Positions 37,342-46,273 of a stretch of 49,402 bases of DNA are shown here, piece after piece. Source of the DNA: a virus; IMG/VR virus record IMGVR_UViG_3300033388_001954, positions 1 through 49,402 of that record; one strand, given 5' to 3'. The notes beneath the pieces were generated by a model. That model made no database searches, was not told the DNA's origin, and worked only from the letters and a program-made list of their open reading frames with translations. The number at the start of each line of letters is the position of its first letter. The stretch's first letter is position 1. Position numbers and translations under genes: made by a program.

Positions 37342-37853
37342 AGTTTCGCCTCCTCTACGTCCTTTAGTGTTACGTCCTGGGTGGTGTTACCTTCGTCTGA
37401 CATGTCAGACACCTCCACCGCATCGACTGCTTCCTCTAACTTCTTCCACCTCTCCGCTAGTGGGTAAGTATTTAGGACTACCATGTTTTCCATTATGGGG
37501 CCACAGTGTCCTTTCACTTCGTTATCCAATACACCAACACTTTTAGGGATGTGCTCATCCATGCCGCAGCCACCACAGATAGTGCGACTACTGAAGAATG
37601 GGTGGGGTACTTCCTGAGGTACCCTTTCCACACCACCACACCGAAGGCAGCAGGGGATGGTGTCCTTCTCCCACACTGTGGTGATGATACCTTCGCATTC
37701 CCGAAGCCCACACTTCATGCCGCTGTTGTGGGGTACCAGCCTGCGACCACATTGCGGGCAGCAGTAAGGCTCTTCCCTGCGTTGGCGGTTATGGAGCCAT
37801 TGGACTTGGCGGGGAGAGAAGGGGGCTGTTACTGTGGGTTGGTTAGGAGTCAT
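37338..37853 (-). CDS. Multi-zinc-ribbon protein (171 aa)
   Basis: Start at 37853 (GGAGGTAACAGC before the ATG, overlapping the previous stop). Four knuckles are visible: Cys-Cys-Pro-Gln-Cys-Gly, Cys-Gly-Leu-Arg-Glu-Cys, Cys-Cys-Leu-Arg-Cys-Gly and Cys-Gly-Gly-Cys-Gly. An acidic tail of about 40 residues ends the protein. Could bind nucleic acid or RNA polymerase. Unusual for its number of sites. Confidence 0.6.
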   Translation of the reverse strand: MTPNQPTVTAPFSPRQVQWLHNRQRREEPYCCPQCGRRLVPHNSGMKCGLRECEGIITTVWEKDTIPCCLRCGGVERVPQEVPHPFFSSRTICGGCGMDEHIPKSVGVLDNEVKGHCGPIMENMVVLNTYPLAERWKKLEEAVDAVEVSDMSDEGNTTQDVTLKDVEEAKL

Positions 37854-38566
37854 GCTGTTACCTCCAGCTTGTTGTATTGTAATTCTGTGATTGGTGGATA
37901 CCAAACCTCGTGGCGGGTCCTAAGTAAATATAGCAGCCTTCCTTGTTCTAGCAAGTAGGAGTAGGGAAGATTTCTCTTTTTATATTCTTCAATGACCGTC
38001 ATCATGGGGTCCTCTGACCCTAATAAGGCCTTCTCAGCCCCTACTTTGCCGCAACCCATGATGCCCGGTATGTTGTCGCAACCATCACCCATTAGCATCT
38101 GGTGGCAAAGGTTACGAAGAGCTTTAGCTTCGGATACCACACTGTGATGCTCCTTGCGGTAGTCATAGAACTTACAGGGAAGCTGGTGGAGATCCTTATC
38201 AATACAGGCGATGGTAACCTTATAGCCGTAGTTTGCCGCCACAATCGCAACCACATCGTCAGCCTCATAGGTGCGACATACGGTAGTGTTAAAGTTAGCG
38301 GCAATAAACTTCTTAGCTTCGGTAAGGTATTCAGGCTTCTCCTTGTCTTTCCTATTACCTTTATAGGGCTTAGTAACAGCCAGGTGGTTACGGAAGTTGA
38401 AGATACCATCCCAATGTTGGAGGTAACACTTCAGTTCGTCACACCGGGTAGCTAGCCTGATGTTTAGTAATACATTCTGGATATGGGCCCGGCAATCCAA
38501 CCAGGTGCCTTTGTAGCCAGCCATATAGGCGAGGCTATCCAGGTCTGCCAAGGTTATGATTGGCAT
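37850..38566 (-). CDS. 5'-3' exonuclease (FEN-type)
   Basis: 238 aa; the start at 38566 has GGAGGTAGCG and begins Met-Pro-Ile-Ile-Thr-Leu-Ala-Asp-Leu-Asp. Acidic metal ligands appear at Asp8/Asp10, Glu101-Ala-Asp-Asp (101-104), Asp123-Lys-Asp125 and Gly-Asp-Gly-Cys-Asp-Asn (160-165), then the helix-hairpin-helix Gly-Cys-Gly-Lys-Val-Gly-Ala. This matches T4 RNase H/T7 gp6-type enzymes that remove RNA primers and 5' flaps. The Tyr-Lys-Gly-Asn-Arg (68-72) basic motif is present too. Confidence 0.85.
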   Translation of the reverse strand: MPIITLADLDSLAYMAGYKGTWLDCRAHIQNVLLNIRLATRCDELKCYLQHWDGIFNFRNHLAVTKPYKGNRKDKEKPEYLTEAKKFIAANFNTTVCRTYEADDVVAIVAANYGYKVTIACIDKDLHQLPCKFYDYRKEHHSVVSEAKALRNLCHQMLMGDGCDNIPGIMGCGKVGAEKALLGSEDPMMTVIEEYKKRNLPYSYLLEQGRLLYLLRTRHEVWYPPITELQYNKLEVTA

Positions 38567-39324
38567 TTCGCTACCTCCAGGTCGGTTGCTTTGATGCGGC
38601 AATGCTTCCAGGCGTCCCCCCAGCAGATAAATTTCATGATAGAATCAGGATCTACCCCCATAAGTAACTCGTCCTTCCATGGCGTGGAATGAACATCTCG
38701 CACCTCACAAAGGACCCTTCCGCCGGCTTCTACCACCATAGCGTCCGTGATGGTGTTACCTTCTAGGTATTGTGGAGTCCTGTCGGCGATCAATAAAAGC
38801 GAAAGCTTCCATCTGCTGCTACCATTTTCGTCCGTGAGGTCATCCCAGCACCCAGTAGCACACAAGTTCTCTCCTTCTAAGTCCTTAGCTTCAGGTAGTG
38901 CCCCCATAATAGCTTCCAGGTTTTCCAGGGTGTGGTGGTTGGTGGCTTTTTTGTAGTGGTGCAGCTCTTCTGTAACCTCTTTGCGGATCTTGTCTTTCTC
39001 GATTAACTCGTCTTCTAGTCTCTTAATGGTAAGCTGGCATTCTCCAACTTTCTCCAACCAGTTCAGCCCCACATTATGGATTCTGTTACGTAACTCATCA
39101 TTCTCTAGTTGTAGTTCTTCTAGGGCGATAACAGCATTCTTTAGGGTCTCCGTGTTGTCAGTTACTACATAGGGGGGCACGGGCCAGCGCTGCGTGACTT
39201 CATCGTCCCGCTCGATGCTACTATCATCGTCTACCCATTCACCATCATAATGGTACTGAAGTCCGGCTGGGCGGACATTCCCTGGTAACTCATTTCCTGG
39301 GCTCCACATGTGGTAAGCTTTCAT
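38554..39324 (-). CDS. Paralogue 2 of the MKxYHxW family, with coiled coil (256 aa)
   Basis: Starts Met-Lys-Ala-Tyr-His-Met-Trp-Ser-Pro-Gly-Asn-Glu-Leu-Pro. The central region (about 60-130) is a long coiled coil. The C-terminus contains Cys-Trp-Asp-Asp-Leu and Trp-Lys-Leu-Ser-Leu. It is the longest and most changed of three paralogues, and the shared part is limited to the first 15 or so residues and a Trp-Pro segment. AGGAGAGAAG precedes the ATG at 39324. Confidence 0.6.
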   Translation of the reverse strand: MKAYHMWSPGNELPGNVRPAGLQYHYDGEWVDDDSSIERDDEVTQRWPVPPYVVTDNTETLKNAVIALEELQLENDELRNRIHNVGLNWLEKVGECQLTIKRLEDELIEKDKIRKEVTEELHHYKKATNHHTLENLEAIMGALPEAKDLEGENLCATGCWDDLTDENGSSRWKLSLLLIADRTPQYLEGNTITDAMVVEAGGRVLCEVRDVHSTPWKDELLMGVDPDSIMKFICWGDAWKHCRIKATDLEVAKCQS

Positions 39325-39356: not shown

Positions 39357-40676
39357 TTAATAGCAGTCTTTGCTGCCATATTTATGGTTACTGAAATAGC
39401 TGTACTTAGGATAATACCTTAGCACACATTGTCCTTGTGCGCCCCCCCTAACCTTCCCTAATCTTATCCAACAATCAACTGCTTCTCCTTTTTCGATGCT
39501 ATACTGTAGCTCTGGGTTAGCGGCGGGGTCCTCCCTGGTCATCAATAATACTACGTCTGCGTCCTGCTCCAGTGCTCCGCTCTCTCGTAATTGATGGGTT
39601 TGTGGGCCTTTCTCACTTTCTGCTGCTGCCCTGTTAAGCTGACAAAGCACGATACCCACTACTTTTAGCTCGCGGCACAGCTCCTTCATGGCTTTCGACA
39701 TCTCTGCTACTTGCTGCTCTCTCTTTAGGTGGGGGCTATCGCTAGTAATTAGTTGGAGGTAATCTACGAAAAGGTATGAAATGTTATGGTCAGCTTTCCA
39801 GCGCCTGGCTTGTTGGGCTAACTGGGAGAAGCGAATCCCTGGTTGCTGATCAAAGCAGATGGGTAGGCTTGCTATGTGGTTACCTGCTGCGATGACCGCA
39901 TCCTCCCCCAGGTGGTCCCGCAACTGCCTGGTATCAGTCTTCGATAAAGCGCACACGAGCCTATCAACTAGCTGGTCTGCCCCCATTTCTAATGTGAAGT
40001 AGCCGGCTGCCAGGCCCTGGTTAGCTAGCTCGTAAAGCATGCAAGCCGCCAAGGCTGTTTTCCCCATCGAAGGTCTTGCTGCCAATATAACCATGCTGCC
40101 AGGCTCTACGGCACCAGTTAGGGTAGTTATGTCATCATAACCCAAAGTGAGGAATGTGCGGGGCTCCACCAAAATCTTCTTACGCAGCTCCCATGCCTCG
40201 GCTACCGTCATCACAGAGCCTCTCTGCCCATAAGACGCTAGGTTACGGAGTTCGCCTTCAATTGCTGCAGTTACTTCAGATACAGGCTTCTCGGCTTTAT
40301 AGAGGCTAGTATTCGCAACTTCAAACGCCTTAATAAGCTTCCTGCGTGAGTGATAATCTCCCACTTTTTGTAGGTATGTTTCCAAATTTGCCACCGTAGG
40401 CAAGCTATTACGAATTTCCCTGATGACACGCATCCCCTCAAGCGGGTCGGGTAGCTTGTCGGCAATTGATACCAGGTCCACCTCCTTCCATCCAATGGCA
40501 CCTCCCGAAGCCGCTGCTTTATAGATAGCCGCATGCCGTGGGTCCCAAAATGGGTTTTCAGAGCCGAAGGTCGCGTGGACTTTGCTGCCAATCGTCGCTG
40601 GCTCTTGAAGGCAGGCCGCCAACAAAGCCTTCTCGTTTGGTAGGGAGTGGGGTTGTTGTAATTCTTCATGCTTCAC
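39357..40676 (-). CDS. dnaB: Replicative DNA helicase, DnaB-type
   Basis: 439 aa when started at the GTG at 40676. The N-terminal domain opens Pro-His-Ser-Leu-Pro-Asn-Glu-Lys-Ala-Leu-Leu (9-19), as in DnaB. Walker A Arg-Pro-Ser-Met-Gly-Lys-Thr-Ala is at 201-208, Walker B Tyr-Leu-Phe-Val-Asp-Tyr-Leu at 301-307, then Leu-Cys-Gln-Leu-Asn-Arg and Glu-Ser-Gly-Ala-Leu-Glu-Gln-Asp-Ala-Asp. It unwinds DNA at the fork. The longer ATG start (40778) would run through a small Cys-rich gene, so it is rejected, though the start is not certain. Confidence 0.9.
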   Translation of the reverse strand: MKHEELQQPHSLPNEKALLAACLQEPATIGSKVHATFGSENPFWDPRHAAIYKAAASGGAIGWKEVDLVSIADKLPDPLEGMRVIREIRNSLPTVANLETYLQKVGDYHSRRKLIKAFEVANTSLYKAEKPVSEVTAAIEGELRNLASYGQRGSVMTVAEAWELRKKILVEPRTFLTLGYDDITTLTGAVEPGSMVILAARPSMGKTALAACMLYELANQGLAAGYFTLEMGADQLVDRLVCALSKTDTRQLRDHLGEDAVIAAGNHIASLPICFDQQPGIRFSQLAQQARRWKADHNISYLFVDYLQLITSDSPHLKREQQVAEMSKAMKELCRELKVVGIVLCQLNRAAAESEKGPQTHQLRESGALEQDADVVLLMTREDPAANPELQYSIEKGEAVDCWIRLGKVRGGAQGQCVLRYYPKYSYFSNHKYGSKDCY

Positions 40677-40842
40677 TTTTAGTGCCTTTCTTTGGGTGCA
40701 GTAATCTCTTCCCTTTATCACAAGGTCCGCGAGCATGGCTATTGTAGTGATGTTCGCACATATAGGATGCTGACCCATTTTTGTTTGAAACGAACCAGCT
40801 CGCCTCCTTGAAGCACCAGTCGCATTGCGGCGTATTCCTCAT
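40666..40842 (-). CDS. Hidden Cys-rich protein overlapping the helicase start (58 aa)
   Basis: A frame from ATG at 40842 to TGA at 40666 gives 58 residues with Cys-Asp-Trp-Cys (7-10) and Cys-Glu-His-His (29-32) then Cys41, a probable zinc knuckle. The ATG overlaps the previous stop (ATGA). It overlaps the helicase's 5' end by 11 bases. This frame fits the Cys-rich series in this arm better than the helicase's extra N-terminus would. No family recognised. Confidence 0.65.
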   Translation of the reverse strand: MRNTPQCDWCFKEASWFVSNKNGSASYMCEHHYNSHARGPCDKGKRLLHPKKGTKSEA

Positions 40843-41893: not shown

Positions 41894-42871
41894 TTAGTGG
41901 TTAATGTGGGCCAGTAAGGCGTTGCCACATGTAATCATCCCTCGCTCTTCTTCCTCGGAAGGTACAAACGTCAACACGTCGAAGCCGTTTGAAATTAAGT
42001 CTTGTTCAATATCTTCGTATGGTGTGAATGAGCTATATCCACCCTTAGTTCCGATAGAATTAGAGGTGCTTGCTGCGGTGTTATGGATTGGTGTCAACTT
42101 AACCATCCACCTTGTTGGGTCAAATAGATCCGCAAGCTTTTTCCCTGATATCTCGTAGCCGTCAGCTACTGCAAAATTTAGAGCGTATTTCCTACCACGC
42201 GGCTTTGGCAGCTTGTCGGCAAGGTACGAAATTCTTGCAAGGCTTGAAGAGCTACCACTAAACATCTCTTCGCGCTGCTTGTCGCATGTTGAGTTGATAC
42301 TTAGTTGTAAGCCAGCCTCACCGCCATAGGTGTCGTTTTTTACGTAATAGCACCACTCTGTGAGGTACGCCTGCAGATGCGTATTTGCGTGTGGCATCAT
42401 AGTGCTGATTACAGGGTGGATAGTGTCTGCCTGTACTCCTAGGTCATGGCTCACGAAGTAACGTAACCCCAGAGCATGGCGTAATGTATCTCGATTAAAT
42501 GTCGGCTCCCCCATCCGAGCGTAATGCACGTTAAGCCGCTTCGTTTCCGTCGCACCGCCGACAAGTAGCCCGGCTGCAACCTGCTTATTCATGTCAGCAA
42601 CAGAGGCATTTCTACCAGGGCCAACCTTGGGCACGTCACAGAATTTGCAGCCCATACTGCATCCGTACTGGCTTGAGATTGTGACAACCCATTTTTCGGT
42701 CAATGGTAGCGGTTGCCCATTTGGGACCCCTAAGAGCGGTCTGGTAATGCCAAGGAAGTCAGCTTTTATGTTAGCTTCTTTTCCGTAGTCTGCTATCGAG
42801 AGGCATTCAAGCTTCCCTTTTTGGCCATCAATAATGATTACTTGTCCTGTGGGAACATTTTGAATCTTCAT
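41894..42871 (-). CDS. RlmN-like radical SAM RNA methylase with altered active site (325 aa)
   Basis: The radical SAM cluster is Cys71-Ser-Met-Gly-Cys75-Lys-Phe-Cys78, preceded by Thr64-Ile-Ser-Ser-Gln-Tyr-Gly, which aligns with the Cys-Val-Ser-Ser-Gln-Val-Gly of RlmN. Met-Gly-Glu-Pro is at 120-123 and the carboxy end has Arg-Gly-Met-Ile-Thr-Cys315-Gly-Asn, matching the methyl-carrying Cys region. The residue that is Cys118 in E. coli RlmN is Thr64 here. RlmN/Cfr enzymes methylate A2503 of 23S rRNA and some tRNAs. The missing Cys may change the reaction. Confidence 0.8.
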   Translation of the reverse strand: MKIQNVPTGQVIIIDGQKGKLECLSIADYGKEANIKADFLGITRPLLGVPNGQPLPLTEKWVVTISSQYGCSMGCKFCDVPKVGPGRNASVADMNKQVAAGLLVGGATETKRLNVHYARMGEPTFNRDTLRHALGLRYFVSHDLGVQADTIHPVISTMMPHANTHLQAYLTEWCYYVKNDTYGGEAGLQLSINSTCDKQREEMFSGSSSSLARISYLADKLPKPRGRKYALNFAVADGYEISGKKLADLFDPTRWMVKLTPIHNTAASTSNSIGTKGGYSSFTPYEDIEQDLISNGFDVLTFVPSEEEERGMITCGNALLAHINH

Positions 42872-42901
42872 CTCTCTCTCCTTTTTTAGTGGTTAAGGGT
42901 C

Positions 42902-44259: not shown

Positions 44260-44613
44260 CTAACTTACGTATGCTTTCAGGGCTGCTAATATGGTGGACT
44301 CTGAGAACTCCTTGCCGTTAATGGTGACGGTTTTTTCTGGTACTACCTCCTGAGGGCGTTCCCAGAGGAGGTCGCCTGTTTCTTTCTTGTAGAGGTCGTA
44401 TGCCTTGGGGCCTTCATAAACCTTAACAATGTCAAGCGTGTGGTCGCCACAGCAAATTAGATCCTCTTCAAAAAACTGTAGCTCACAAAATTTACCATGA
44501 AAACCACACAGGGAACCAGTAAAGCTAGTGCCATTCATGGTTTCCAGGTACAGGTAATGGTTACCCGCCCGATTCTCTAATACCATCCCCTGTTTCAAAT
44601 CACTTTTCTTCAT
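44260..44613 (-). CDS. Hypothetical protein with VTINGKE-type tail motif (117 aa)
   Basis: The end Lys-Thr-Val-Thr-Ile-Asn-Gly-Lys-Glu-Phe resembles tail sequences in paralogue 1 (Val-Thr-Val-Asn-Gly-Lys) and paralogue 3 (Val-Thr-Met-Asn-Gly-Lys) of the MKxYHxW family. A Cys-Gly-Phe-His-Gly-Lys-Phe-Cys and Cys-Cys-Gly-Asp-His segment may bind metal. The start overlaps the sigma factor stop (TAATG). Function unknown. Confidence 0.55.
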   Translation of the reverse strand: MKKSDLKQGMVLENRAGNHYLYLETMNGTSFTGSLCGFHGKFCELQFFEEDLICCGDHTLDIVKVYEGPKAYDLYKKETGDLLWERPQEVVPEKTVTINGKEFSESTILAALKAYVS

Positions 44614-45191
44614 TACGCGATCTCCCTTAGTTTTTCTACTGCTTTGTTGTAGCGCTTTAACGCGCCATTCTTACTGATTGATAACATATCGCCAATCTGC
44701 TGGAAGGTCAAGTCTTTCAGCCGTAATTCTACTACTTTTCTTTGGGGTGCTGACAGGAAGGATAAAAGGTGGGGAATGTCCTCTCTGTGGGCGGGCATTA
44801 CTATTAGGTCTGACATTGTTATCTCCGTGATGCCTGTTAGTTGTAGTTCAATTACGTCATCTGATGATATTGTGGTAGTGTCCCGCTTCCCCCGGGTGAC
44901 TGCTACCTTTTGGTGGTAGTCCCCTAACCTTCTCCTTGCTGCTGCCTTCAGGAAGGTGGCGACACCGCAGCCTTTTCGCTCGTCATAGTTCTTGATGGAT
45001 GATAACATAGCGGTAACCGCGATAGCGATGGCGTCATCATGCTCTATTGCCCACCACTTCGTAACCTCCTGCTTGATAAGTGGTACCATACTTTCTATTA
45101 ACAGACCACAAGCGTCTGTGTCCCCCTCCTTGGCGAGTACCACCACCTCCTGTTGCTGGGTAGTAGTTAGCGTTCTGCAATTATCCCACAT
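44613..45191 (-). CDS. Sigma-70 family factor (second)
   Basis: 192 aa. Region 2 is at about 40-95 (His-Asp-Asp-Ala-Ile-Ala-Ile-Ala-Val, Asn-Tyr-Asp-Glu-Arg-Lys-Gly, Ala-Thr-Phe-Leu-Lys-Ala-Ala-Ala-Arg). Region 4 is at about 140-190 (Pro-Gln-Arg-Lys-Val-Val-Glu-Leu-Arg-Leu, Thr-Phe-Gln-Gln-Ile-Gly-Asp-Met-Leu). It differs substantially from the first factor at 30986, so they may act in different phases. Both are in the leftward arm but 13 kb apart. The ATG lies 4 bases past the previous stop. Confidence 0.87.
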   Translation of the reverse strand: MWDNCRTLTTTQQQEVVVLAKEGDTDACGLLIESMVPLIKQEVTKWWAIEHDDAIAIAVTAMLSSIKNYDERKGCGVATFLKAAARRRLGDYHQKVAVTRGKRDTTTISSDDVIELQLTGITEITMSDLIVMPAHREDIPHLLSFLSAPQRKVVELRLKDLTFQQIGDMLSISKNGALKRYNKAVEKLREIA

Positions 45192-45195
45192 AATG

Positions 45196-45834
45196 TTATG
45201 ACCTTTCTTTTGTGGTTGTTAAGTTTTCCGTCCACTGGGTAGCCATAGCTACTGCTATGCCGGGGAAGGTTTTGCTTCTTTCCTTCGGAGAATTCCACGC
45301 CTTGAAGGAAGGTAGGCTGGACTGCTTCCTGGTACCATCCTTTCTTTGACCTCCCCTAGTGCTGTTGCTGCACCAGTTATGGGTTGGTGTTACCACCTCA
45401 GTTTCTCGCAGTAAAGGCAAGCCCTTAAGCCAGAGGCAAGTCTTCTTCATGAATGGATCGCCGAACTGCCATGGCTGTATAATCTGGTCGGGTTTTCGCC
45501 ATGCGGTAGAAAGCTTACCTACTGGGTTCTCGATAGCTACCCTATCGCAGCTGTCGTAAATCTTCATAACAAAATCTATTGCGGCTTGCTGCCTGCCATC
45601 TGCCACCTTCTGAGGCCATGACGGTGCGCCCGATGAGGCCAGGTGAGTGCAAGGCGGGAAAGCAATTACCATATCCCAATCTTCCATCAGCCACGCTTCT
45701 GCCAGCTGCTGCAGATGCCACCCTGGACGTCCACCACTACAGGGCAGCGGGTCGCAACTATAGGCCTCATGACCCCGCTTGCGTAGCTCCTTGGTTACTG
45801 CCTGGCTCTCTTCGCATGCTACTAGAATCCTCAT
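45196..45834 (-). CDS. Cytosine-C5-methyltransferase-like protein (212 aa)
   Basis: Motif IV appears as Pro-Pro-Cys-Thr-His-Leu (about 61-66) and motif VI as Glu-Asn-Pro-Val-Gly. The N-terminus (Met-Arg-Ile-Leu-Val-Ala-Cys-Glu-Glu-Ser) lacks the usual Phe-x-Gly-x-Gly start, and the protein is shorter than full Dcm enzymes. It may be a compact phage methylase that hides DNA from restriction or a derivative that no longer works. Start at 45834 chosen by GAGGTGAAG. Confidence 0.65.
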   Translation of the reverse strand: MRILVACEESQAVTKELRKRGHEAYSCDPLPCSGGRPGWHLQQLAEAWLMEDWDMVIAFPPCTHLASSGAPSWPQKVADGRQQAAIDFVMKIYDSCDRVAIENPVGKLSTAWRKPDQIIQPWQFGDPFMKKTCLWLKGLPLLRETEVVTPTHNWCSNSTRGGQRKDGTRKQSSLPSFKAWNSPKERSKTFPGIAVAMATQWTENLTTTKERS

Positions 45835-45847
45835 TTCTTCACCTCTG

Positions 45848-46273
45848 CTATTGTTGTGCTGCCGGCATGATGCCGTCAATTATCATTTGTGCCCATTCGA
45901 TGTGGCCAATCAGGAAACTTTCTGTGTCCTCGTAGGGGTAAGAAAGGGGCCCGATTTCTTCGTCACCCCAACCATACCTAACATTAGTTTCGTCGAGGGT
46001 TAAACCACCAAACGTCTGCTTGCAACAGGCGTACTTTCTATAGCACGAGGCCCTAACCGCCAACCACTTACATTGCGAGCTTATGCAGGCGTAGGTCGGA
46101 ACGCAATGAGGGCAGCCAGAAAAGTGGGGGTAATCCACAACCCCGCAGTATAGGTCTTTTAGTAGGGTAATATTCCTTTCATAGATCTGCCAAGCCTGCT
46201 GCATAGTGGTATCCACTAGTGCTAGCTGTTGGATTTCCTCTGGAAGTAATACGTAGAGATCCTTGGATATCAT
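45848..46273 (-). CDS. Cys-rich protein (141 aa)
   Basis: At least ten cysteines (including Cys-Pro-His-Cys at 54-57 and Cys-Ile-Ser-Ser-Gln-Cys at 63-68) indicate one or two metal sites. Helical ends flank this core. AAAGGAACC lies before the ATG. Function unknown. Confidence 0.6.
   Translation of the reverse strand: MISKDLYVLLPEEIQQLALVDTTMQQAWQIYERNITLLKDLYCGVVDYPHFSGCPHCVPTYACISSQCKWLAVRASCYRKYACCKQTFGGLTLDETNVRYGWGDEEIGPLSYPYEDTESFLIGHIEWAQMIIDGIMPAAQQ

Follow-up and report, generated by a model that had tools for sequence, protein, structure and literature searches.

Threonine at the position of the resolving cysteine in a phage family of RlmN-like radical SAM proteins

Introduction

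RlmN (NCBIfam model TIGR00048) is the C2-methylase of A2503 in 23S rRNA and of A37 in tRNA, and Cfr is the C8-methylase of A2503 in 23S rRNA. In RlmN, Glu105 deprotonates Cys355 ahead of methyl loading, Met176 is among the residues that steady the cysteinyl radical, and Cys118, the resolving Cys, deprotonates the adduct, acting mainly as a general base (PMC9692996). The RlmN variant C118A remains stuck as a covalent tRNA adduct, Cfr has a resolving Cys of its own (C105), and the essential Cys of spore photoproduct lyase is an H-atom donor (PMC9692996). RlmN deprived of its resolving Cys is disabled and stuck on its substrate, to which a branch of RlmN-like proteins that does without this Cys offers a natural contrast.

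Here, we describe such a branch, starting from one gene of a phage genome. In the literature that we searched, we found no account of an RlmN-like phage enzyme lacking the resolving Cys, nor of a methyl-carrying Cys placed on a separate protein.

The RlmN-like gene and its product

The window, i.e., the whole stretch of viral DNA that was analysed, is 49,402 nucleotides long. The gene under study and its main motifs are as follows:

41894..42871, minus strand: gene for a 325 aa RlmN-like radical SAM protein of the phrog_24834 family (ATG start; Thr at the resolving-Cys position)
42878..42882, minus strand: AGGAG resembling a Shine-Dalgarno sequence, 6 nt upstream of the start codon
42680..42682, minus strand: codon of Thr64 (ACA), which aligns with the resolving Cys118 of E. 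coli RlmN
42638..42661, minus strand: C71-x3-C75-x2-C78, the [4Fe-4S] cluster motif, from sequence and alignment
42503..42520, minus strand: Ala118-Arg119-Met-Gly-Glu-Pro, the SAM-binding GEP motif (MGEP is residues 120-123; E. coli M176 and G177 are replaced by Ala and Arg)
41927..41929, minus strand: Cys315 codon (TGT), equivalent to the methyl-carrying Cys355 of RlmN

When the 325 aa product was searched against the PDB by sequence, the only matches were RlmN and Cfr, and Pfam returned a weak match to Radical_SAM. TIGR00048 scored 35.8 bits against a cut-off of 290 bits, and no curated RlmN/Cfr model in the NCBIfam scan came above its cut-off. In PHROGs, phrog_24834 covers residues 5-321 of the 325 (411.8 bits, E 3.6e-123), i.e., the protein is a full-length member of a family with no assigned function; for a related protein, from Bacteroides phage Versailles, the annotation reads 'radical SAM domain-containing protein'. 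The AlphaFold2 model has a pLDDT of 94.3 and a pTM of 0.92. Among solved folds, it lies nearest to 6fz6, which is an RlmN-like enzyme, and to E. coli RlmN (4pl1, 4pl2) and Cfr (9p0p, which is also a sequence match), and spore photoproduct lyase is found among its weak fold matches.

With RlmN, the window protein has in common the radical SAM fold, the CxxxCxxC cluster, the MGEP motif, the Glu105 equivalent, and the Cys355 loop. Unlike RlmN, it has Thr instead of Cys118, lacks Met176, and has Arg119, Lys258, and His116. The N-terminal helical domain of RlmN is absent as well, as only 70 residues precede the cluster and these are modelled as strands. Class A chemistry and fold would be alike in Cfr and the window protein, whose chemistry is assigned by homology; however, the window family has no counterpart of Cfr's C105, and we saw no sign in it of a resistance function like that of Cfr.

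Thr64 and Cys315 across the family

A preliminary description, made from the letters of the sequence, had placed Thr64 at the position of E. coli Cys118 and had recognized the CxxxCxxC cluster and a C-terminal methyl-carrying Cys. Alignment with E. coli RlmN bears this out. It is gap-free between the residue in question and the cluster, with T64 lying 7 residues before C71 just as C118 lies 7 before C125; C71, C75, and C78 are all present, and the ITCGNA loop containing C315 aligns with the AACGQL loop containing C355. No other alignment puts a Cys at the resolving position. Nor does any close relative have the normal Cys, which was seen only in distant proteins, namely RlmN and a phage clade described below. 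The Thr64 observation is thus confirmed, and it reaches further than first noted, to the family and to the whole branch.

In the first 27 relatives, both Thr64 and Cys315 are invariant. A larger family set was gathered with the patterns GRK[YI][TA]LNF and AGLQ..., neither of which includes position 64, so Thr at this position was not selected for by the sampling. These scans returned 198 related stretches from viral contigs. They also turned up loci on contigs from bacteria and archaea, of which many may be prophages or viral contigs that fell into bins. Thr occupies position 64 in 118 of the 119 family members in which it could be read, the remaining one having Ala (GCA). All four Thr codons are in use (ACA 52, ACC 24, ACT 27, ACG 15) at a residue that is kept, which indicates selection on the amino acid. 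Of 126 family loci, 122 have the TCGN motif around Cys315, and in at least three of the four exceptions the gene is incomplete. The cluster, GEP, Glu, and Cys315 are kept across more than 100 diverse phages. We looked for a compensating Cys in the alignment of the Thr family, and it shows no other conserved Cys column outside the cluster.

The idea that Thr64 is a single change in one phage was ruled out, given that Thr is found family-wide.

A branch without the resolving cysteine

To place the family, we built a maximum-likelihood tree from the window family, distant phage relatives, cellular loci, and the canonical RlmN of nine bacterial genomes and E. coli. Besides RlmN, the tree contains a phage clade that has Cys118 (the C-clade) and a third branch that does not, with the topology (G,(I,T)) and support of 94/85. 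At the position of E. coli 118, this branch has Gly in a phage clade (the Gly clade), predominantly Ile in a cellular clade (the Ile clade, with members from Thermoplasmata, Krumholzibacteria, Bacteroidales, and others), and Thr in the window family (the Thr clade). With RlmN as the outgroup, a single loss of Cys118 accounts for this pattern. Judging from these alignments, we assign the window family to an RlmN/Cfr-like (class A-type) branch in which Cys118 appears to have been lost throughout; it is not RlmN or Cfr in the strict sense because a resolving Cys is lacking.

The C-clade proteins (e.g., those of Vibrio phage PS17B-2 and Salmonella phage Arash) are likewise short and lack the RlmN N-terminal domain. 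Unlike the window family, they keep Cys118, Met176, and Cys355 and could work like RlmN.

Three further residues of the window protein were of use when the five groups were compared column by column:

42806..42808, minus strand: Glu22 codon, equivalent to E. coli RlmN Glu105 and conserved in all five groups
42524..42526, minus strand: His116 codon (E. coli V174), a candidate base or substrate contact
42098..42100, minus strand: Lys258 codon (E. coli N307), Lys in all members of the Thr, Ile, and Gly clades and not in the C-clade or RlmN

The column of E. coli 174 contains H, Q, or N (with a few L) in the branch without Cys118, in contrast to a hydrophobic V or M in the clades that have it. Met176 is confined to RlmN and the C-clade, its place being taken by Ala, Ser, or Thr in the branch without Cys118; in other words, Cys118 and Met176 were lost together. 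The column of E. coli G177 is Arg throughout this branch (Arg119 in the window protein). Within the Thr family, His116, His152, and His263 are invariant and specific to it. The Cys355 equivalent is conserved in all five groups, where it must be kept in mind that the Thr and Gly members in this column count were preselected for CG[NQM] and that the unbiased counts are those for the 27 relatives, the 122 of 126 family loci, and 74 of 81 Gly-clade loci. Since the equivalents of Glu105 and Cys355 are kept and those of Cys118 and Met176 are lost, the half of the RlmN machinery that serves methyl loading would be retained and the half that serves release would be gone. The branch spans phages, bacteria, and archaea and keeps every methyl-loading feature, and setting its Thr, Ile, and Gly clades beside those that have Cys at the same position makes the need for a resolving thiol directly testable.

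A separate cysteine peptide in the Gly clade

The radical SAM proteins of the Gly clade end about 40 residues early, and have no Cys355 loop. In 74 of the 81 Gly-clade loci, however, an ORF of about 40 aa that contains this loop lies downstream of the radical SAM gene on the same strand, usually 10-30 nt away and otherwise mostly at 0.3-1.9 kb. Two examples from the set L204-L281, each with the AACGQL motif beside a truncated RlmN-like gene, are:

L255:3084-3200: carrier ORF
L241:8788-8943: carrier ORF

The consensus of the carrier peptide is MExIKxQLExxGYDYAVAIATxAEIENGAACGQLSII, and the spacing from its Gly-Tyr/Phe to the CG is 17 residues, as in the window family. The ORF is under purifying selection (pN/pS 0.16 in the coding frame versus 1.5 and 2.4 in the shifted frames). 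A profile of the carrier peptides gives weak matches in the cellular and Thr families (best E 1.9e-5), and natural in-frame read-through rows, by means of which the carrier was placed in the alignment, align with the C-terminal ends of the other clades, in which this segment is fused. When L255 was read through its TAA and modelled, the nearest folds were again RlmN, and the helix and strand of the carrier followed one another as they do in the C-terminal part of the window protein's model, with a pLDDT of about 90 for the helix, about 76 for the strand, and 53-61 for the Cys loop, which is thus uncertain. From these comparisons, the Gly clade appears to be a naturally split enzyme whose catalytic Cys is found on a separate microprotein.

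Two other explanations of the Gly-clade loci were set aside. That this clade has no methyl-carrying Cys at all was ruled out by the downstream microprotein. Recoding of the stop codon was also ruled out, as all three stops (TAA, TAG, and TGA) occur and the microprotein often lies over 1 kb away or does not share the reading frame of the radical SAM gene.

At one locus (L034), a single ORF that overlaps and then follows the radical SAM gene repeats the carrier motif in tandem, with two copies (GAACGQMAIL ... GAACGQMAIL). Additional genes that by eye look radical SAM-like are often found near the radical SAM gene and the microprotein (L205, L216, L226, L239, and similar loci).

Gene neighbourhood

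Around the gene in the window, the following features were located, the four protein-coding genes lying on the strand of the radical SAM gene:

37850-38602, strand of the radical SAM gene: 5'-3' exonuclease gene
39357-40778, strand of the radical SAM gene: DnaB helicase gene
44613-45191, strand of the radical SAM gene: gene for a sigma-70 region 2/4 protein
45196-45879, strand of the radical SAM gene: DNA methyltransferase gene
5644: tRNA-Tyr
47553: tRNA-Ala(cgc)

NAD salvage is common in large phages; among those of medium and jumbo size, 22-33% have NadV (PMC9503650). By neighbour clustering and Pfam, Thr-family genes were found to be accompanied, in several arrangements, by genes for NaPRT, nicotinamidase, NAD synthetase, adenylyltransferases, and NrtR regulators, one operon order being NaPRT-PncA-rSAM-NadE-DUF5662-NrtR; near Gly-clade genes, the neighbours include NAMPT and NMNAT-Nudix-like genes. 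Some family members lie in or beside gene sets of the kind that reconstitutes NAD+ in phages by NadV/NAMPT and NadM (NARP2 in the literature); nevertheless, the NARP2 pathway as described has no radical SAM member, and no NAPRTase (PF04095) was matched in the record of the window phage, which is possibly a fragment. Other recurrent neighbours are DNA-methyltransferase genes, and RNA genes are not among the recurrent ones.

Enrichment was measured against random anchors within the same loci after near-copies had been collapsed, a null in which the mutual clustering of NAD genes remains: an NAD gene lies within 3 genes of the radical SAM gene at 11 of 96 collapsed Thr-clade loci (random-anchor mean 4.3, with none of 2000 draws as high) and at 12 of 54 collapsed Gly-clade loci (random-anchor mean 5.5, P=0.001). 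The same test gave no enrichment of NAD genes near the radical SAM gene in the C-clade. Most Thr-family loci have no NAD gene nearby, and a NAPRTase gene was present in just 4 of the 37 Thr-family contigs of mid-size. Our leading guess from context as to the substrate is NAD or nicotinate metabolism, both because of the neighbouring genes and because pyridine rings suit a radical addition of the kind considered below.

A DUF5662 gene (PF18907), HD-hydrolase-like by eye, lies directly after NadE in the radical SAM/NAD operons of L048, L054, L062, and L072.

In the cellular clade (L083-L109), genes for an isochorismatase-like hydrolase and a thioredoxin-reductase-like flavoprotein precede the radical SAM gene at many loci, and an alignment of this flavoprotein shows no conserved Cys pair. 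It is possible that this hydrolase-flavoprotein-radical SAM operon represents a new pathway. Genes resembling MttB and corrinoid proteins by eye lie beside it at L088, L091, and L097. Canonical RlmN was present in all four bacterial genomes with Thr-family genes that were checked and in six of ten cellular-clade genomes, the other four having no close RlmN.

Possible reaction and alternatives

The enzymes without Cys118 probably carry out a reaction that differs from that of RlmN, perhaps in NAD metabolism. Our best reading, which we hold tentatively and at somewhat short of an even chance, is radical chemistry via a methylated Cys, with no thiol to resolve the adduct and with a substrate that is not rRNA and is possibly related to NAD. 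Assuming homology with RlmN, SAM would methylate Cys315 and a second SAM would generate a Cys-S-CH2 radical there, which would add to the electron-poor ring of a non-rRNA substrate. Given the new Arg119 and Lys258, this substrate is probably small and anionic. The adduct would be released without a thiol, either through another residue, His116 being the foremost candidate, or by virtue of the adduct's own nature. In the Gly clade, the 40-residue Cys carrier could leave with each round or be replaced after it. The preliminary description had suggested that the protein may trap RNA, use another residue, or perform a different chemistry, for example tRNA capture. Use of another residue or a different chemistry fits best, given the branch-wide changes at E. 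coli positions 174, 176, 177, and 307, while capture of RNA or tRNA is so far unsupported: the N-terminal domain is gone, most of the checked bacterial genomes with a relative have their own RlmN, and the recurrent neighbours are not RNA genes.

Against this best reading, the association with NAD genes is partial and the fold may bind RNA even without the N-terminal domain. It is conceivable, if somewhat unlikely, that the protein is instead a phage RNA C-methylase (of tRNA, phage RNA, or host rRNA) with normal turnover and with His116 or His263 as its base. RlmN and Cfr are the closest solved relatives, His116, His152, and His263 are all available as bases in the Thr family, and a Cys that acts mainly as a general base would be replaceable by another residue (PMC9692996). 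On the other hand, the missing RlmN domain, the canonical RlmN present alongside Thr-family genes in the bacterial genomes checked, and the recurrence of NAD and DNA-methyltransferase rather than RNA genes all speak against it, and a change of substrate is suggested by Arg119 and Lys258, which the cellular and split clades have too. An RNA target also figures in the proposal of a one-shot trap, in which a permanent thioether adduct between the enzyme (or the Gly-clade Cys microprotein) and RNA or another target is itself the product. We consider this distinctly unlikely: fusion of the carrier in the Thr and Ile clades would mean that each enzyme molecule is spent once, the Ile-clade operon with its hydrolase and flavoprotein resembles metabolism, and the RlmN-type N-terminal domain is again missing. 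The covalently stuck RlmN C118A (PMC9692996) and the presence of Thr, Ile, or Gly at 118 with no conserved substitute thiol do favour a trap, and a separate Gly-clade carrier, in tandem in L034, would fit a consumed reagent.

There may also be no methyl transfer, with Cys315 serving as an H-atom donor or shaping the pocket. The joint loss of C118 and M176 would agree with this, as would the weak fold match to spore photoproduct lyase, whose Cys donates H (PMC9692996); yet no clade has lost the equivalent of Glu105, which deprotonates Cys in RlmN, and the CG[QN] motif of the loop persists even where it has moved to a separate protein, so we regard this explanation as unlikely. Decay into an inactive RlmN copy, for which the missing catalytic Cys could be cited, is very improbable: Thr64 is maintained via four synonymous codons, the motifs are kept in more than 100 diverse phages, the predicted fold is intact with high confidence, and selection contradicts decay at the level of the family. 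Finally, these proteins might form a separate radical SAM class in which a one-way or exchangeable methyl-Cys carrier, renewable in the Gly clade, adds CH2-S-Cys, later released or left in place, to a nicotinate- or NAD-type molecule, the product acting against NAD-depleting defences; this we would call a long shot.

Unusual Thr-family loci

Two loci of the Thr family depart from the usual arrangement. At L073:2386-2958 and the next ORF, a member is seemingly split at the cluster motif by an intein-like insert, and one locus, L056, has two Thr-family radical SAM genes.
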